Source: Armatimonadota bacterium
GTDB taxonomy: Bacteria; Armatimonadota; HRBIN16
Direction of reading: 5' to 3'
Length of the DNA: 64,000 bases
Assembly (NCBI GenBank): GCA_026003175.1
Contig: BPGT01000002.1
Coordinates: 248,001 to 312,000, forward strand
Shown here: positions 9,246-42,932 of the stretch, one piece after another
Position numbering within the stretch: the first letter of the stretch is position 1
Layout: each line of letters begins with the position of its first letter
Notes under the pieces: model-generated
Databases searched by the model: none
What the model saw: only the letters and a program-made list of their open reading frames with translations
Told to the model about the DNA's origin: nothing
Translations under genes and position numbers: made by a program

Positions 9246-9340
9246 CCGGGAGGACAGGGGTGTCCTCCGGCGGCTCCTGCCGAGCCGTTGGTGTCGTTGC
9301 CCTTTGCAACTAGCCCCCTTCCCTGCGAGGGAAGGGGGAG
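9246..9340. repeat. Cluster of three palindromic repeat elements upstream of the beta-helix gene
   Basis: Three elements lie side by side: a hairpin with GGAGGACA/TGTCCTCC arms (9249-9268), a copy of the CTCCTGCCGAGCCGT motif (9274-9288), and a 25-base palindrome centred on TGCGA (9314-9338) flanked by CCCCC and GGGGG. The last is the reverse-orientation relative of the palindrome repeated five times inside the glycosidase gene near 17.1-17.5 kb. The motif at 9274 also appears at 21648-21672 (inverted) and 35011-35035. Confidence 0.7.
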
Positions 9341-9481: not shown

Positions 9482-10276
9482 ATGAAACAGCGGGGTTTTA
9501 CCCTGATTGAGCTGCTTGTAGTTATCGCGATAATCGCGATACTGGCAGCGATCCTGTTCCCGGTGTTTGCAAGAGCTCGTGAGCGAGCACGTCTTGCGAC
9601 CTGTATCTCTAACTGCAAGCAGATTGGCTTGGGCGCGATGATGTACGTGCAGGATTACGATGAGGTCTTCCCCGTGGCAATGTTTGCTTTCAACTCGCCC
9701 TCGGAGGTCTCACACGTCGGAGGCAACTGGGTCAGCGTGCCGGGCGGACCGACGGGCTGTCATACGCGGTTGGGACAGCACCCCACGCTGGTGGATGTAT
9801 TGATGCCTTATGTCAAGAACGAAGGCATCTTCACCTGCCCCTCGCTGAACGTACCGGTGAAGCGTAACGCACAGGGCGATGTGTGTGAAGACTACTCTGG
9901 CTCTTACGCCTACCGCTGCTACGACGGCTTCGGGCTGCCGGGTAATGTGTCACCCATCCTGCGAGGGGGCAGTGTGTTTGCGGCGGTGATTTTCGGGCTG
10001 TACCCTCCGCCCTATCGCTGCCCGCAGGGGATACAGACCTCCTCGGTAGGGTGGTCAGCGTGCGGAGCGTCGCTGGCTAGCGTCACCAAGCCCGCTGAGG
10101 ATATGCTCATCGTCTGCAACTCGTGGGGCTGGCACTACGGCGCGAAGAATCAGGACGTAGTAGAGGGACGCGCCATAGGAGGTACCCCAACCGTTTACAT
10201 GGACGGACACGCCAAGTTCCAGCCGATTACGATCGGGGGATTTCTAAACTGGATTTGTAACCCGTTGAACGACTGA
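9482..10276 (+). CDS. Type II secretion/DUF1559-like prepilin protein
   Basis: Prepilin-like surface protein of 264 residues. It starts [19 protein letters not shown], a prepilin-peptidase cleavage site (G|F with Glu at +5) plus hydrophobic N-helix, followed by [12 protein letters not shown], a CISNCKQIG segment, [11 protein letters not shown] and a C-terminal DGHAKF motif typical of the H-x-G-D-G family. Such proteins are hugely expanded in Armatimonadota and Planctomycetota; individual functions are unknown. The ATG at 9482 is chosen over a GTG at 9473 because GGGAGG lies about nine bases before it. A good promoter is present upstream. Confidence 0.88.
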
Positions 10277-15320: not shown

Positions 15321-18300
15321 TCAGCCAACCGCTAACCGTTCCCCTCCAAACAACCTGCCCAGCCGTGCTTCGAGAATCAACATCAGTCCTTGCGTGACCG
15401 GCGTGTATTTCGTCTTCATCGGGCTGTAGAGGCGCGGCAGGCGGAGGGTGGTGGCATACCTGCCCTTACCCTGCGGCTGCATGTCCCACCAGCGGAAGGC
15501 ATCGGGTACCAGACGCACACGCACCTGCGCGCCGTCGGCGGGTTTGCCGTCGGGTTGCCACACAGAGGCTTGTACATGCAGGTTTTCGCCCGCCCGATGC
15601 GCTGCCGCTTTGATCGCCAGAGCGTGTGTCACGCTGCGTGCCAGAGCGAGCGATTTCGCCAGCCGCTGCGTCTGCAGGTGAGCACGTGCCGATTGGGTCA
15701 ACCACTCCAGCGGGGCGGTATCTACGCCAGCGTTTCTCCAGAGAGCGCACGTCTTCTCCGCCTCGGCTATCGCCCTTTCGCACTCCGAAGGCGTCGTCTG
15801 GCGTTCTATCACCAGCAGGCGTGTGCCGTATGCCTCCAGCGTGACCCGAACGGGCAGATTCGGGCTGAGCACCTCTCCGGTCAGTGCATCACGCACCCTG
15901 TACACTCCTTGCGCAACCTCCAGCAGGCGTGCGGAAAGCGACAGGTGCAGAGCACGAGTGAAGTCTCCCCGATGCAACAACAGTACCACCAGATTCGTGC
16001 CGTCGGTGAGGAGCAAGCACTCTACCCCCTTTGCCCAACCTGTTTCTGGTGAGGAGGTGACCTCTATCGGGCGCAACAGTGCTATCTGTTCCAGTTGTCG
16101 TTCCATCTCCTCCACCGGCAACGGACGTACCTTCGCCGACCATGTGGCGGCTCCGCGGTCGGTGGAGGTCTGGTGGATCACGGTTACGGGCGCGCCCGGT
16201 GCGTCATCAGGCAGGCGGATGACGCCTTCCTGCAACGGCGGAAGGCTGTTGCCATCCTCGTCTCGCTCGGCGAGTGCACCTACCGCCAGTATCTTTCCTC
16301 CTGCCTGCAGATATTCGCTCAACGCGCGGTGCGTCTTCCGGGATAGCACGGGGTTATCCACACTCAGCAACACGGGCACCGCCTGAGCGAGAGAGGCATC
16401 GCACTGTGCGTCGTGCACAAACAGGGTGTTCCAGCCGCGCGAGCAGGAGAGGTCGTAGAGCAGACTCCATCGGTCCTGCCACCAGCGTTGCCACGTGGCG
16501 TCCGAGAGGAAGATGCCCACCTGCGGGTGCAGACGCGAACAGCCCTCCAGCCAGGGTGCCGCCCGTTTCAGCTCCTCAAAGAGCCTCTTGCACTCCGCCT
16601 CAGCGGGCGTGCCCTGAATGCCCCACTCGCCGTCAGGCAGGGAGCCGCGCCACTGCACCAGCCCGATGTGCCATACGCCCAAGCCCAACGCCTCGTACAC
16701 TGCCCGACGTGCGGACTGTGGGGAAAAACTTCTGCCGCCGCCTCGCGCGGTAGGAGAGAGCTGCTTGTTGGCGAGGCGAGGCGCCACTACCGGCACACCG
16801 AACCCCGTTTGCATATCCAGAGTGAGACGGTGGATACGCTCGGCGTCCTCATCGATAGAGATGGGACCGGCTTCGAAGCCGTCTGCTGCGCCGGCGAGGT
16901 CAGCGATGGGAAAGCCCATCTTGCCGCGGAAATCCAGCGCAAAGGGGTTGCCGTGTGTGGGGATGAAGATGGGGCGGGTAGGGTCTAACTGGCGTAGAGC
17001 GGTGGTATAGAGGGCAAACCGTTCGGTCACCGCCGCCTCGCGGAATCGACGCCAGAGGTAACGGTCTTGCTCGGCACCTCTCCCCCCGCCCCTCTCCCAC
17101 AGGGAGAGGGGCGTATCTCCCCCTTCCCTCGCAGGGAAGGGGGCAGGGGGGGTAGGTTCAGTTTCACCTCTCCCCCATGCGGAGAGGAGCGTATCTCCCC
17201 CTTCCCTCGCAGGGAAGGGGGCAGGGGGGTTAGGTTTAGTTTCATCCCTCCCCCATGCGGAGAGGAGCGTATCTCCCCCTTCCCTTGCAGGGAAGGGGGC
17301 AGGGGGGGTAGGTTCAGTTTCACCTCTCCCCCATGCGGAGAGGAGCGTATCTCCCCCTTCCCTCGCAGGGAAGGGGGCAGGGGGGTTAGGTTTAGTTTCA
17401 TCCCTCCCCCATGCGGAGAGGGGCGTATCTCCCCCTTCCCTCGCAGGGAAGGGGGCAGGGGGGGTAGGTTCAAAACCAGCCTCCAGCCACGCGCGGTAGT
17501 GCGCGAGGAACTCCGGTCGGAAGTCGCCTTCAGGGAGACCGAAGTAGTCCGGGTAGCCCTGCTCGCCGCCAATCACCCAGTAGCGCACCCGCTTCTGTCC
17601 GCGCAACAGGGGTACGGTCTCACGCATCTGGCGCAGGGTGGCGTCGGTCAACACCGGGTCATCGAAGGCGATCCAGGGGTTCTCTCCCGCACGGATGATG
17701 TTGCCCTCGCGGTCGCGCATCGCAGCCTGAGGATACATCTGCCAGAACCAGTCCGGGTAGACCACAAAGAAGGCGTTGTTGTGCTCGCCGATACCTGCTC
17801 CCGAGTCCACACGCAGGTTCGCCAGCGTGACAAGGGTAGATGTCCCCAGGGGCACAGGCGTATCATGCCGGGACGAGCGGGTAAGCGGATGTGGGCTTCC
17901 TCCTGCGTCTCGCCACTCGCCGATGATGCCCCATGCGCGCAGGGTCAGGTCGCCCAGACGTACCCGCGTGCCCTCCTGCAACGCCCGCGCCAGCCACACG
18001 TGCGCCTGGGACTTGCGCACCTGAATGTGCACCCGGTATCTCCCCGCAGGCAACGGCTTCGCTGGCTGCAGAATCAGATGCGGCTGGCTACGCGGTTCCG
18101 TCTGCGCACGGGCAAGGGGTGTGGTGGAGGGCTTGAGTGCAAACAGCTCTCCGACCACCTTGGCGTGAGAGTTGGAGGTGCTTACCAGCAGGTTGACCTG
18201 CGCCAGCCCCGTCGGCGCATCGAACTCCAGATCCATTGTGCAGCGGGTAGACACCTGCACGGGCGCGGGCAAAGGGCGGACACCGTAACGGGCGCGTTCG

Positions 18301-18474
18301 TCCCGAAGCAGGTGCAGCGGCAGATGGAACGAGGTGGCGTTGGCACCCGTGCGATGCACGGTCTCGCGCAGGTCTTCGGAACCCGTCCAGTGCCAGAAGC
18401 CGAACATCTCGGCAGGCTGCCGCTGCCAGTGCCAGAAAGCGGGGTGAAGCAGGCGCGGTAGCAGGTGCGGACAT
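15321..18474 (-). CDS. Glycoside hydrolase (GH42-like) with in-frame repeat insertion; probable N-terminal frameshift
   Basis: Large glycosidase-like protein of about 1050 residues. The central TIM-barrel-like part has VYPDWFWQMYPQAAMRDR, RVRYWVIGGEQGYPDYFGLP and PTHGNPF, reminiscent of beta-galactosidase GH42-type enzymes; a glutamine-amidotransferase-like trimerisation domain (CSRLHPQVGIFLSDA onward) follows. Five 26-residue units (PAPFPAREGG...SAWGR) interrupt the barrel at about residues 313-445 of the main frame. The open frame begins at 18407, but the best start is ATG 18474 with GAGGTG before it. Removing one C from the C4 run opposite 18441-18444 joins MSAPATAPASP to AFWHWQRQPAEMFGFWHW. 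No signal peptide is evident. It follows the DUF6785 gene by 8 bases. Confidence 0.65.
17076..17471 (-). repeat. Five tandem 78-bp in-frame palindromic repeats within the glycosidase gene
   Basis: The anchor GCGTAT recurs at 17111, 17189, 17267, 17345 and 17423, exactly 78 bases apart. Each unit contains a 25-base palindrome (CCCCCTTCCCT...AGGGAAGGGGG) starting at 17119, 17197, 17275, 17353 and 17431. Being 26 codons long, the unit keeps the host frame open. Translated units alternate PT.../DETK and PN.../GETE, indicating a 156-bp dimer duplication. The palindrome core occurs alone, inverted, at 9314-9338. Confidence 0.92.
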
Positions 18475-18482
18475 CTTTCACC

Positions 18483-20421
18483 TCACACGGGGAACGGTTT
18501 GTACAACGGGATGCGGAAGAGCCAGCTCGCCAGCGCAAGCACCCCGCATATCGCATAGTCGCCCACGATCAACCCGATGAAGAAAGGCACAGCCCTCTGG
18601 TACAGGCGCAACCCGCCTGCCCGCAGTACCGCCGCTTTGGCGACTCCGGCGATAACGATAGGCACCCACATCCACTCTAACGCCCCACTCTGCGCCATCA
18701 CGAACCCGCCCGGATGCAGCGGGAAACCAGAGGAACTGATGCCTCGCCGCCTGTAGCAACAGCACGAACAGAAAACCCCAGCCCGCTGCCAGCAGTTGTG
18801 ACGCGCCCGGTTGCGGAACCAAACCGTCTACCTGCGAGCGCAGGATATCGAACGCCTGCCTGCCCTGATAGGTGCGCCACTGGTCGGTGATAGCCGACGC
18901 CGCGCCGTAGCGGTAGTACACGTCCAGCGCAATCCACAGGCTGGCAAGGATGCTGAGCACGGAGGCGATACCCAGCGAGAGCAGGAAGGGCTTGCGAGGC
19001 AGGCGCACGGTATCGGCGAGGGTAAGCATCTCCGAGTAGGTGGGGAGAGCGTGCGCGCGGAAATCGCCAAACGAGAACCAGCGCAGATACGCCAGCCCCA
19101 CGCCCTCCGAAAGGGGCATCGGCGAACGCACCAGAGCACGTGTCCACCACGCCACGTCGTTGCCGGGGTTCCAGATGGGTCCCAGCGCAGCCCGCAACCA
19201 GCCAATGCTCACCATGCACAGAAAGAACACCAGAAACAGCGTCACCGCTACCACAGGGCGAAGCCCCAGCGCGATGCCGAAAGCCACCAGCACCGCCAGC
19301 GAGCCAGCGAAAACCAGCCACCACAGCCGCTCAGTGCGATGACGCAGCGATTCCTTCACCCGTTCTCTGGCAGACCATGCCACCACCAGCGCGAACGCCA
19401 CAATCGCCCCCTGAGCTTGCTCGCCTGCATAGGGGAAGCCCGAACCACCTCCGCCCGCCTGATTCAGCCCCCATACCCCCGCCATCAGATTCTCGCCTTT
19501 CATCAGTGCGAAAAAGAAGGCGCAGGAGAAGAGGATGTTCGTGGGAACCAGCGCGAACAGACCGATGACGCTGGGATAAAAGGTAAGATACAGTGTGCCG
19601 ATGCCGTTCCATGGCGGAGGCAGTCGGCTGCCGATTTCGGTGGGCAGCACACGCAGTTCGGGTACCGAGGGAATCATGTAATGCAGGGCGTTCATCCCCT
19701 GCATCCCCACCGCCAGCACAATGCCCGCCCAGAGCAACGGGTTTCTGCCCGATCGCTCGCGGGTCAACACCAGCGGCAGCTGGAGCATGGGGAAGGTCAG
19801 CCTCTCACGCTTCGCCCAGTGCACGCTGAAGACCATCGCCAGGCAGAACTGCGCCACGAGCAATGTGCCGATAAACCCTGTCCACACCAGTACCGGCACC
19901 AGCCATGCCTTCCACACCTGAGGCTGATAGAAGCTGGATTGCCCGACGAAGAACCCTTTCACCACATCGGGCGAGCGTGGAGCGGCCCACGCGGGAATAT
20001 GCGCCCAGAACTCCTCCCACCGATTGCCTGCGTTGGCAAACCAGAAGGGGGCAACCAGCGTGGTCACCAGAAACTGCACCATGCCCATCGTGGAGATGCC
20101 GACTGTGCCTGCCACCACCGCGTATATCCACAGCACCTCCCGTCTGCCCAGAGCAGGTGCCACCAGACGAACCAGCAGCAGCGCAAGCAGCACTACCACT
20201 GCCGCGACAGGTAGGGAGCTGGAGGCCAGGTCCGCCGAGCGGTACAGGATCTCGCTGCGGAACACCCAGATGCACACCAGCGGCGCCAGCAGGATACTGC
20301 TCCAGAAAGCGATGCGCACGGCTGAGGAGAACCGCCTCGCGGAGTCGGTGGTGTCCTGGAGCGAAATGGGATGGGATATGTTTGGTTGGACTGTGTTCAT
20401 AACTACTGGCTTTTCGGACAC
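18483..20421 (-). CDS. DUF6785/DUF6784-type multi-pass membrane protein (frameshifted near C-terminus)
   Basis: Polytopic inner-membrane protein of about 645 residues with a dozen or so hydrophobic segments. The pattern (APFWFANAGNRWEEFW, SSFYQPQVWKAWLVPVLVW, LTFPMLQLPL) is that of the DUF6785 family found with glycosidases in Armatimonadota and Planctomycetota; function unknown, possibly transport. The main frame runs into non-hydrophobic sequence after HQFLWFP. The genuine C-terminus (HPGGFVMAQSGALEWMWVP ... SWLFRIPLYKPFPV) continues in another frame and stops at 18483. One surplus C opposite 18721-18723 explains this. The start is GTG 20421 or ATG 20400; neither has a strong ribosome site. 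Confidence 0.75.
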
Positions 20422-21603: not shown

Positions 21604-22110
21604 TTAAACTGTATGGACAAGCGTTGTGGGGGAGGCTTTCTGGACAGACGGCTCGGCAGGAGCCTCACCCTCCCCCACGAAAGGCGTTCGATGTGCGTTT
21701 CCGTACGCGTCGCACAAGAGAATGGTGACATCGCACACACAGCCCTTGCCTCCGATGAAGGGTGACCCCACCCAGAGTGGCCAGTAGAACTCGTTCAGGT
21801 GGCGCGGAGCCGACGGACAGACCCACGCACCTTCGTTCTTGATATAGGGCTGCACCACACAGCGCCAGGTGACGTACGACAGCTCCGGGGTAAACGAGAA
21901 GATACGGTTGAGCGGGAGCGTCTCATCGTAGTCCTGCGCATACATCAGCACTGCCAGCCCTATCTGCTTCATGTTGCTGATGCAGGAGGCTTGCCGCGCC
22001 TTTTCGCGAGCCTGGGCGAACACCGGGAACAGGATAGCCGCCAGTATCGCGATAATAGCGATGACGACAAGCAACTCAATCAGGGTAAAGGCACGTCGTG
22101 ACACTCGCAT
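21604..22110 (-). CDS. DUF1559-like prepilin, short form ending in a dispersed repeat
   Basis: Prepilin-like protein of 168 residues: [20 protein letters not shown] leader and N-helix, [30 protein letters not shown]. The C-terminal DGH motif of longer paralogues is missing. Instead the frame reads into [18 protein letters not shown], which is the translation of the CTCCTGCCGAGCCGT-type repeat at 21648-21672, then stops. The ancestral C-terminus therefore seems to have been replaced by the repeat. The ATG at 22110 has AGGAGG about seven bases before it; the open frame extends 18 codons further into the lacI tail. Confidence 0.8.
21648..21672 (-). repeat. GEAPAEP/GSAGASP dispersed repeat inside the prepilin gene
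   Basis: Inverted copy of the element also seen at 9274-9288 and 35011-35035, with core ACGGCTCGGCAGGAG on the plus strand followed by CCTCACCCTC. In this copy it supplies coding sequence (EGEAPAEP) to the 3' end of the prepilin gene. Confidence 0.7.
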
Positions 22111-34941: not shown

Positions 34942-35010
34942 GGTACACTCTGCTTCGAGTGAAGTCGCTTCCTCCCAAACGAAGCCACCCTTCAGGCTGC
35001 GCCACTCTTG

Positions 35011-35107
35011 GAGGGTGAGACTCCTGCCGAGCCGTGCCCTCATCCCCAATCCTTCGCCCAGCGAGAGAGAAGCGCGTCCCCTTCTCCTCTTGGGATAAGG
35101 GGTTTTC
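35011..35107. repeat. Composite dispersed repeat between convergent genes
   Basis: The first part (35011-35035) contains CTCCTGCCGAGCCGT preceded by GAGGGTGAGA, the same element as at 9274 and 21648. The rest (to about 35107) reads, on either strand, as the familiar artefact peptides of a second repeat class (SLSLGEGLGMRA / PSPSEREARP) with CCTTCTC/AAGG arms. No gene is seen between 34942 and 35141. Confidence 0.6.
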
Positions 35108-42104: not shown

Positions 42105-42932
42105 ATGAAACGCAACGCTTTTACGCTCATCGAGCTGCTCGTTGTGATCGCGATTATCGCGATACTGGCAGCCATCCTATTCCCGGTGTTTGCACAGGCG
42201 CGAGCAACAGCCCGCAAGACTGTCTGCCTGTCTAACATGAAGCAGTTAACGCTGGGCATGTTGCAGTACGTCCAGGACTACGACGAAAGGTTTCCCGGAT
42301 GGCACTGGCAGTTCTTCTGCAACGGTGGCAACAACGGTCTGCCCCGGGATTCCGCCGCCTTCTGGACGATGGCGATTTACCCGTACGTGAAGAACGACGG
42401 TGTATACCAGTGCCAGGATGACCCGCTGCAGTGGAACGACGCCTGGGCGGGGTGTAGCGATGACGGTGGGCGCAACGACCGCTTCGCGCCGATTAACCCC
42501 AGCACCGGGCAGCCCTGCAACTTCTGGGAGTCCTGCAACCCGCGTTTTGTCTCGTATGGGATGAACGAGACGCTGACAGGAGGTCAGTACGGCTTCCCAT
42601 CCAACAAGCTGGGTGGCATTCCAACGCCTGCGAACTGGGCAATGTTCTTCGACAGCGCGAGCCAGCTGGTGGACATCTGGGTCTGGCAGCGACCGGATAG
42701 CAACAACTTCAACTGGATTGCTGCCCGTGCGGCGTTCTCTACCGAAGGTTGCTGCAAGATATGGAGCTGCTGCCGCACGGCGGACTCCTGGATCCAGGAG
42801 TTCGGTCAGGGCACGCTGGACCAGCTTGCACGCCATGCAGGCGGAGAGAACGTCACCTTTGTGGATGGCCACGCCAAGTTCTTCCGCTGGACGCAGTTGA
42901 CGTGGGGTAACATGACTACCGGTAGTCTGTAG
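42105..42932 (+). CDS. DUF1559-like prepilin protein
   Basis: Prepilin-like protein of 275 residues: [20 protein letters not shown] leader with A|F cleavage context, [32 protein letters not shown], and the C-terminal [14 protein letters not shown] motif. The central part has many Cys and Trp (ECC-like pairs CCKIWSCC), suggesting disulphides in an exported domain. AGGAGGG lies before the ATG. It is the second gene after the promoter at 41741, and a strong hairpin follows. Confidence 0.88.

Follow-up and report, generated by a model that had tools for sequence, protein, structure and literature searches.

Palindromic DNA elements have been described within bacterial protein genes before. Rickettsia palindromic elements (RPEs) sit in coding genes (PMC2229807), and a guanylate kinase with an RPE insert stays active (Abergel 2006, as cited in PMC2229807). 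Intragenic REPs of the GTAG/CGTC superfamilies occur in open reading frames as dimers or groups, many of them N-terminal (Di Nocera 2013, PMC3733652); REP clusters encode 43-82 aa in Thauera and R. conorii, and the same study considers many of its N-terminal cases probably non-coding (PMC3733652). The REPINs of Pseudomonas form ordered tandem clusters that include flanking sequence; they were analysed extragenically, and some lie beside RAYT genes (Bertels and Rainey 2011, PMC3116915). Borg tandem repeats are in-ORF units divisible by three, prone to disorder and enriched in exported proteins (PMC9879509), and in Yersinia an RU-2 element makes part of the signal peptide of YPO1552 (Delihas 2007, PMC2759123). 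The passage of mobile DNA into bacterial protein is known mainly from RPEs and scattered REPs, usually as single inserts with no before-and-after series.

We examined a locus of this kind in a 64,000-nucleotide stretch of DNA (the window) from an Armatimonadota bacterium whose close relatives are hot-spring Armatimonadota. The host gene contains a 396-nt in-frame insert (132 aa) with no stop codon, which consists in coding order of four 78-nt units and then one complete 84-nt element. TRF placed the array at 17091-17472 with a period of 78, 4.9 copies and 93% matches, in agreement with a first-pass annotation of this DNA that had described five units 78 bases apart, each with a 25-base palindrome. 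A tryptic peptide predicted from the repeat is EGGDTLLSAWGR. The features of the locus, including a solitary palindrome, are as follows.

15321-18407, reverse strand: host gene, a GH42-like glycosidase relative of 1028 aa (intact ORF).
17076-17471, reverse strand: whole in-frame insert, 396 nt = 132 codons = 84 + 4x78 nt, missing in the orthologues of four congeners.
17076-17159, no strand assigned: complete element copy, 84 nt = 28 codons, with outer stem ACCTCTCCCCCC/GGGGGGGTAGGT and two hairpins inside (DNA fold).
17089-17111, no strand assigned: first palindrome (P1), of the CCCCTCTCC/GGAGAGGGG type, complete in the 17076-17159 copy only.
17119-17143, no strand assigned: second palindrome (P2), CCCCCTTCCCT-nnn-AGGGAAGGGGG, 25 nt.
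17160-17237, reverse strand: unit 4 (78 nt, numbered in coding order), the same sequence as unit 2, with P2 at 17197-17221.
17238-17315, reverse strand: unit 3 (78 nt, numbered in coding order), differing from unit 1 by 2 nt, with P2 at 17275-17299.
17316-17393, reverse strand: unit 2 (78 nt, numbered in coding order), with P2 at 17353-17377.
17394-17471, reverse strand: unit 1 (78 nt, numbered in coding order), with P2 at 17431-17455.
9314-9338, no strand assigned: solitary P2, about 135 nt ahead of the start called for a pectate-lyase-like gene, which is read leftwards.

The full 84-nt form is the copy closest to the C terminus of the protein, and the other copies lack about 12 nt of P1. Units 2 and 4 differ by 0 nt, units 1 and 3 by 2 nt, and each neighboring pair (1-2, 2-3, and 3-4) by 5 nt. 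This AB-AB-A alternation fits the duplication of a 156-bp dimer that had been proposed, and it would fit gene conversion too. The solitary palindrome, which had also been noticed earlier, is real and probably lies in leader DNA of the pectate-lyase-like gene: the frame is open there, yet later start codons are available. Three similar genes elsewhere in the window (9482-9664, 21914-22092, and 42105-42295) share a pilin-like leader of 26 residues, and their DNA is 73-83% alike.

Alignment of copies extended the repeated unit beyond the 25-mer to a two-palindrome element that runs ACCTCTCCCCC, P1 (CCCCTCTCC/GGAGAGGGG), a short spacer, P2, and then GGGGGTTAGGTT. P1 and P2 were adjacent in 70 pairs. 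As single-stranded DNA, positions 17076-17161 fold at -35.1 kcal/mol (z -7.4) into a three-way junction with an outer stem and two hairpins. The element shares with REPINs and BIMEs the inverted palindromic halves in one fold and the high, chiefly extragenic copy number. A GTAG/CGTC tag at the stem foot is absent from the consensus, which ends in GGGGGTTAGGTT; GTAG appears in variant copies only. We named the element REPIN-like rather than REPIN because it has the two-hairpin anatomy and no RAYT gene flanked by it was found. Four or five of its six reading frames are stop-free, and one or two are closed. A search of Rfam gave nothing near any gathering score, and since the matches were low-scoring hairpins alone, the reading as an RNA element was rejected.

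The genome (4.1 Mb, 7 contigs) contains 222 P2 palindromes, whereas the reversed-pattern control gave 0, so their abundance is far beyond chance. In a 1.1-Mb sample, 73 of 79 palindromes lay outside called genes although 86% of the sample was coding. A larger sample of 1.90 Mb (46% of the genome, coding fraction 0.846, home-made gene caller) held 158 P2 palindromes, but its stretches were partly picked around known copies, and densities from it are not an unbiased genome average. Called intergenic were 65 of the 72 solo clusters, and the palindrome is thus dispersed and found mostly between genes; six of those 65 are really N-terminal captures, because the codon-usage gene caller favors late start codons and miscalled them until orthologues were compared. 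The remaining 7 of 72 lie in gene interiors, where the window array is the only tandem one and the other six are single half or degenerate elements; gene calls throughout are approximate. Spaced repeats occur in 23 clusters of the 1.9 Mb, and 19 solo clusters are tandem, their units spaced 61-159 nt apart. The element family thus tends generally to grow in tandem, and capture within a gene body is rare. A contrast in divisibility by three between coding and intergenic arrays was dropped, as the intergenic spacings are often multiples of three too. Of 201 genomes scanned across the phylum, 18 contain the palindrome; nine of the 18 belong to the genus of the host, and the other finds are sporadic. 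A second dispersed repeat, with the core GGCTCGGCAGGAGCC, is present in the window at 9275-9290, 21648-21673, and 35010-35035; it has 44 matches in the 1.9 Mb (both strands, at most 1 mismatch), 2 of them within called genes.

Part of the dispersal is accounted for by a carrier. A 186-bp MITE with terminal inverted repeats GAGGGTGTTCG has 54 copies in the 1.9 Mb (e.g., L016, L020, and L074), and 46 of the 54 are bordered by exact target duplications of 8-12 nt, mostly 9-10, so that both the terminal repeats and the duplications expected of a MITE are present. It carries 57 of the 158 P2 palindromes, about a third of the element copies in the sample, and all 51 MITE clusters were called intergenic. 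Around the glycosidase insert no target-site duplication is visible in comparison with the empty sites, but the flanks are diverged and 6 nt shorter. The single Y1_Tnp (RAYT-like) gene found in the genome (L005, G000:C7, 1285-1971) is flanked by a different, GTAG-type REP, GTAGTGCAGGCTTTAGCCTGC. P1/P2 does not border any of the five RAYT loci examined in the genus, and no RAYT was found in G003, G005, and G006, which carry 26-52 element copies. A RAYT-driven family was rejected, since no RAYT is flanked by the element, and no mobilizing enzyme for the element was identified in the searched genome and relatives.

The history of the glycosidase insert was examined in orthologues. In those of G002, G003, G004, and G007 the site consists of 14 variable codons free of any repeat, so that all four are empty and equally long. 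The named MAG genes L153, L154, and L155 (Armatimonadetes, Chthonomonadia) likewise lack repeats, but by sequence they appear conspecific with G004, G007, and G002 and are not independent of them. Orthologues without the insert, which the first-pass annotation had proposed to look for, thus exist. In the closest relative, G006 (92% identical), this site is occupied by an in-frame insert of 123 nt, which has two degraded units and the same ACTGAA spacer. This sharing of the site and of a multi-unit insert indicates that the duplication predates the split from G006. The dS among units 1-4 is 0-0.10, compared to 0.215 between the host genes of the two species, indicating that growth or homogenization of the array is younger than the split. 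A filled site with a lone 84-nt element and no tandem growth was not found in any relative examined.

The support for the earlier label of glycosidase is a sub-threshold GH42 match: the window protein scores 17.9 bits against Pfam GH42 (PF02449), under the gathering cut-off of 21. Five of six orthologues match GH42 at E up to 0.1 (best, 2.8e-4), and a solved-structure search with the host protein gave weak GH42 matches alone (E 0.39). The insert comprises host residues 309-440, and the host alignment has zero invariant columns from W307 to W452, which supports the insertion site as a tolerant position. By the weak GH42 alignment, the insert would fall shortly past the segment with the likely acid/base glutamate E282. 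An AlphaFold prediction with the window protein and three orthologues (pLDDT 33) was unusable for placing it; it may form a surface loop or linker, and the one observation that points this way is the local hypervariability. Next to the host gene, at 18478-20421 on the reverse strand, is a DUF6785 gene whose last ~140 residues seem out of frame, possibly through a frameshift.

We attribute the array, with a probability of about 0.86, to one in-frame capture of the REPIN-like element in the common ancestor with G006, followed by tandem duplication and by more growth in this lineage. Both in-frame capture and tandem growth had been claimed from the window alone, and the orthologue alignments display both. 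A dispersed, non-autonomous element of ~84 nt would have entered a hypervariable 14-residue stretch in frame in that ancestor, and as it amounts to 28 codons and is stop-free in that frame, the gene would have remained unbroken. Slippage or unequal recombination between copies would then have duplicated the element together with its spacer (78 nt, 26 codons), single units first and the 156-nt dimer later. Selection on the enzyme would have purged length changes that are not multiples of three, leaving this species with five units and G006 with two degraded ones. This history would involve a single insertion event, near-neutral tolerance of the Pro/Gly-rich peptide, and translation through the array.

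A scan for further open frames through the element turned up captures in six unrelated secreted proteins. In these the element is in frame, placed after the start codon and ahead of the signal peptide's hydrophobic core, and in several of them it has grown in tandem to 3-5 units of 27-38 codons. These repeated captures, like the two-hairpin anatomy and the MITE carrier, had been missed by the first-pass annotation. The loci in the host's own genome (G000) are L181 8535-8931, L193 11678-11893, L058 10654-11048, L081 11692-11848, L019 7353-7407, and L194 7277-7328, and those in relatives are L104/L134 (G001) and L143 (G005). The states of the six genes are listed below; G001 (330 contigs) and G005 (450 contigs) are fragmented assemblies whose array lengths are to be read with care.

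Gene A: five tandem 108-nt units in G001; a single unit each in G000 and G009; no insert in G002, G003, G006, G007, and G008.
Gene B: inserts in G000, G001, G005 (four 99-nt units), G006, and G009; none in G002, G003, G004, G007, and G008.
Gene C: inserts in G000, G001, G005 (frame to start uncertain), and G006; a remnant in G004; none in G002, G003, and G008.
Gene D: five 93-nt units in G000.
Gene E: four 114-nt units in G000 versus one in G006.
Gene F, amylase-like: three ~81-nt units in G000 versus one in G006.

For genes D, E, and F, orthologues without an insert are present in two or more of G002, G003, G007, and G008. In gene A, the start-codon context E-G/S-V-Q/K-A-M is common to insert-bearing and insert-free versions, and in G000 and G009 no ATG, GTG, or TTG is left between the element and the hydrophobic core, so export via that core requires translation of the element. 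Gene D is the weakest case of capture, as later start codons exist. The reading frame of the element differs by gene (NLTPLPPSLRGKG, PNPPAPFPAREGG, TSPPTPLPQGEG, and LSPNPSPTGRGE types), indicating that it is the DNA that spreads and not a conserved peptide. The n-region of a signal peptide needs only flexibility and some positive charge. Several captured elements end in net positive residues, and from these sequences we infer that the element supplies the n-region. The account given for the glycosidase would also serve for these genes, with occasional frame-compatible insertion at a tolerant place, slippage or recombination between neighboring copies, and purifying selection. The same half-element also lies in frame in two related genes (L074 1108-1130 and L182 16224-16246), where its codon position is identical and a PNPACGAEIPL motif follows.

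Among other explanations of the glycosidase array, adaptive growth survives best, but we regard it as unlikely. A length-variable Pro/Gly-rich segment might tune the enzyme through substrate access, stability, or partner binding, comparable to the disordered Borg repeats, and copy number does vary between sister species both here and in other captured genes, with tandem growth in coding sequence recurring. However, intergenic copies form tandem arrays too, so a coding benefit is not needed, and the G006 insert is short and decayed while its gene remained constrained. There is considerably less reason to think that misassembly turned one or two real units into five: more than 200 element copies in the genome could mislead a short-read assembly, but this assembly has 7 contigs only, the units carry phased differences, the multi-unit insert at the site was seen independently in G006, and arrays with other periods occur elsewhere. 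It is highly improbable that the host gene is a pseudogene or not expressed, with the insert irrelevant, as the 1028-aa frame is open and, for the two insert-bearing species, the host sequence without the insert gives a dN/dS of 0.17, the same as for uninserted pairs (0.13-0.20). The host gene is under purifying selection, with its frame preserved across several length changes. The least credible proposal, a functional domain native to this enzyme family (as a binding module or Pro/Gly-rich linker) whose likeness to the intergenic palindromes is secondary, would suit the perfect frame, the unit regularity, and the 36% of Pro + Gly among insert residues, but four congeneric orthologues and the three named MAG genes are without the insert and DNA rather than peptide is what the copies have in common, other genes using other frames of the element; the empty sites led us to reject a native repeat domain for this clade.

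Capture of the REPIN-like element followed by tandem growth is the reading that we carry forward. More tentatively, and with the odds somewhat against it, the element may be a standing supply of coding sequence in the genus that is captured repeatedly in frame at tolerant positions, above all in signal peptides, where its Arg-containing tail would give the n-region and tandem growth would create length-variable segments that vary from one sister species to the next and might be under selection. Captured elements may have an adaptive use. The bias toward signal peptides is a raw observation, uncorrected for any formal background rate. Across several species and seven genes, the genus offers empty, single, decayed-half, and tandem states at matching codon positions, which makes it a natural case of mobile DNA turned into protein sequence. 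This series makes it testable whether such inserts are tolerated or used and why signal peptides accept them readily.

The element resembles RPEs in being a dispersed palindromic element held in frame in conserved protein genes. It differs in belonging to another phylum and, as far as known, to a different sequence family, and in its tandem growth to 132 aa within one gene, with copy numbers that differ between sister species. The evidence supports an element that works like an RPE; it does not make it one. Compared to intragenic REPs, the consensus has no GTAG/CGTC tag, the array is larger, and orthologue alignments show the start codon of the N-terminal cases to be shared and upstream of the element. 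The unit of two inverted palindromic halves and the tandem clusters are similar to REPINs, but no RAYT flanked by the element was found here. Borg repeats are likewise tandem DNA units within ORFs with lengths divisible by three; however, PMC9879509 does not present them as captures of palindromic elements that are dispersed elsewhere in the genome. As in the case of RU-2, a miniature element contributes part of a signal peptide, but at six unrelated secreted proteins in several species each and with tandem growth rather than at one locus. In the open-access literature we found no description of this combination in one family, in which orthologous codons are empty, filled once, decayed, or expanded. 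In-frame palindromic elements (RPEs and intragenic REPs) and tandem REPINs were already known; their combination, its recurrence, and the signal-peptide bias are new.
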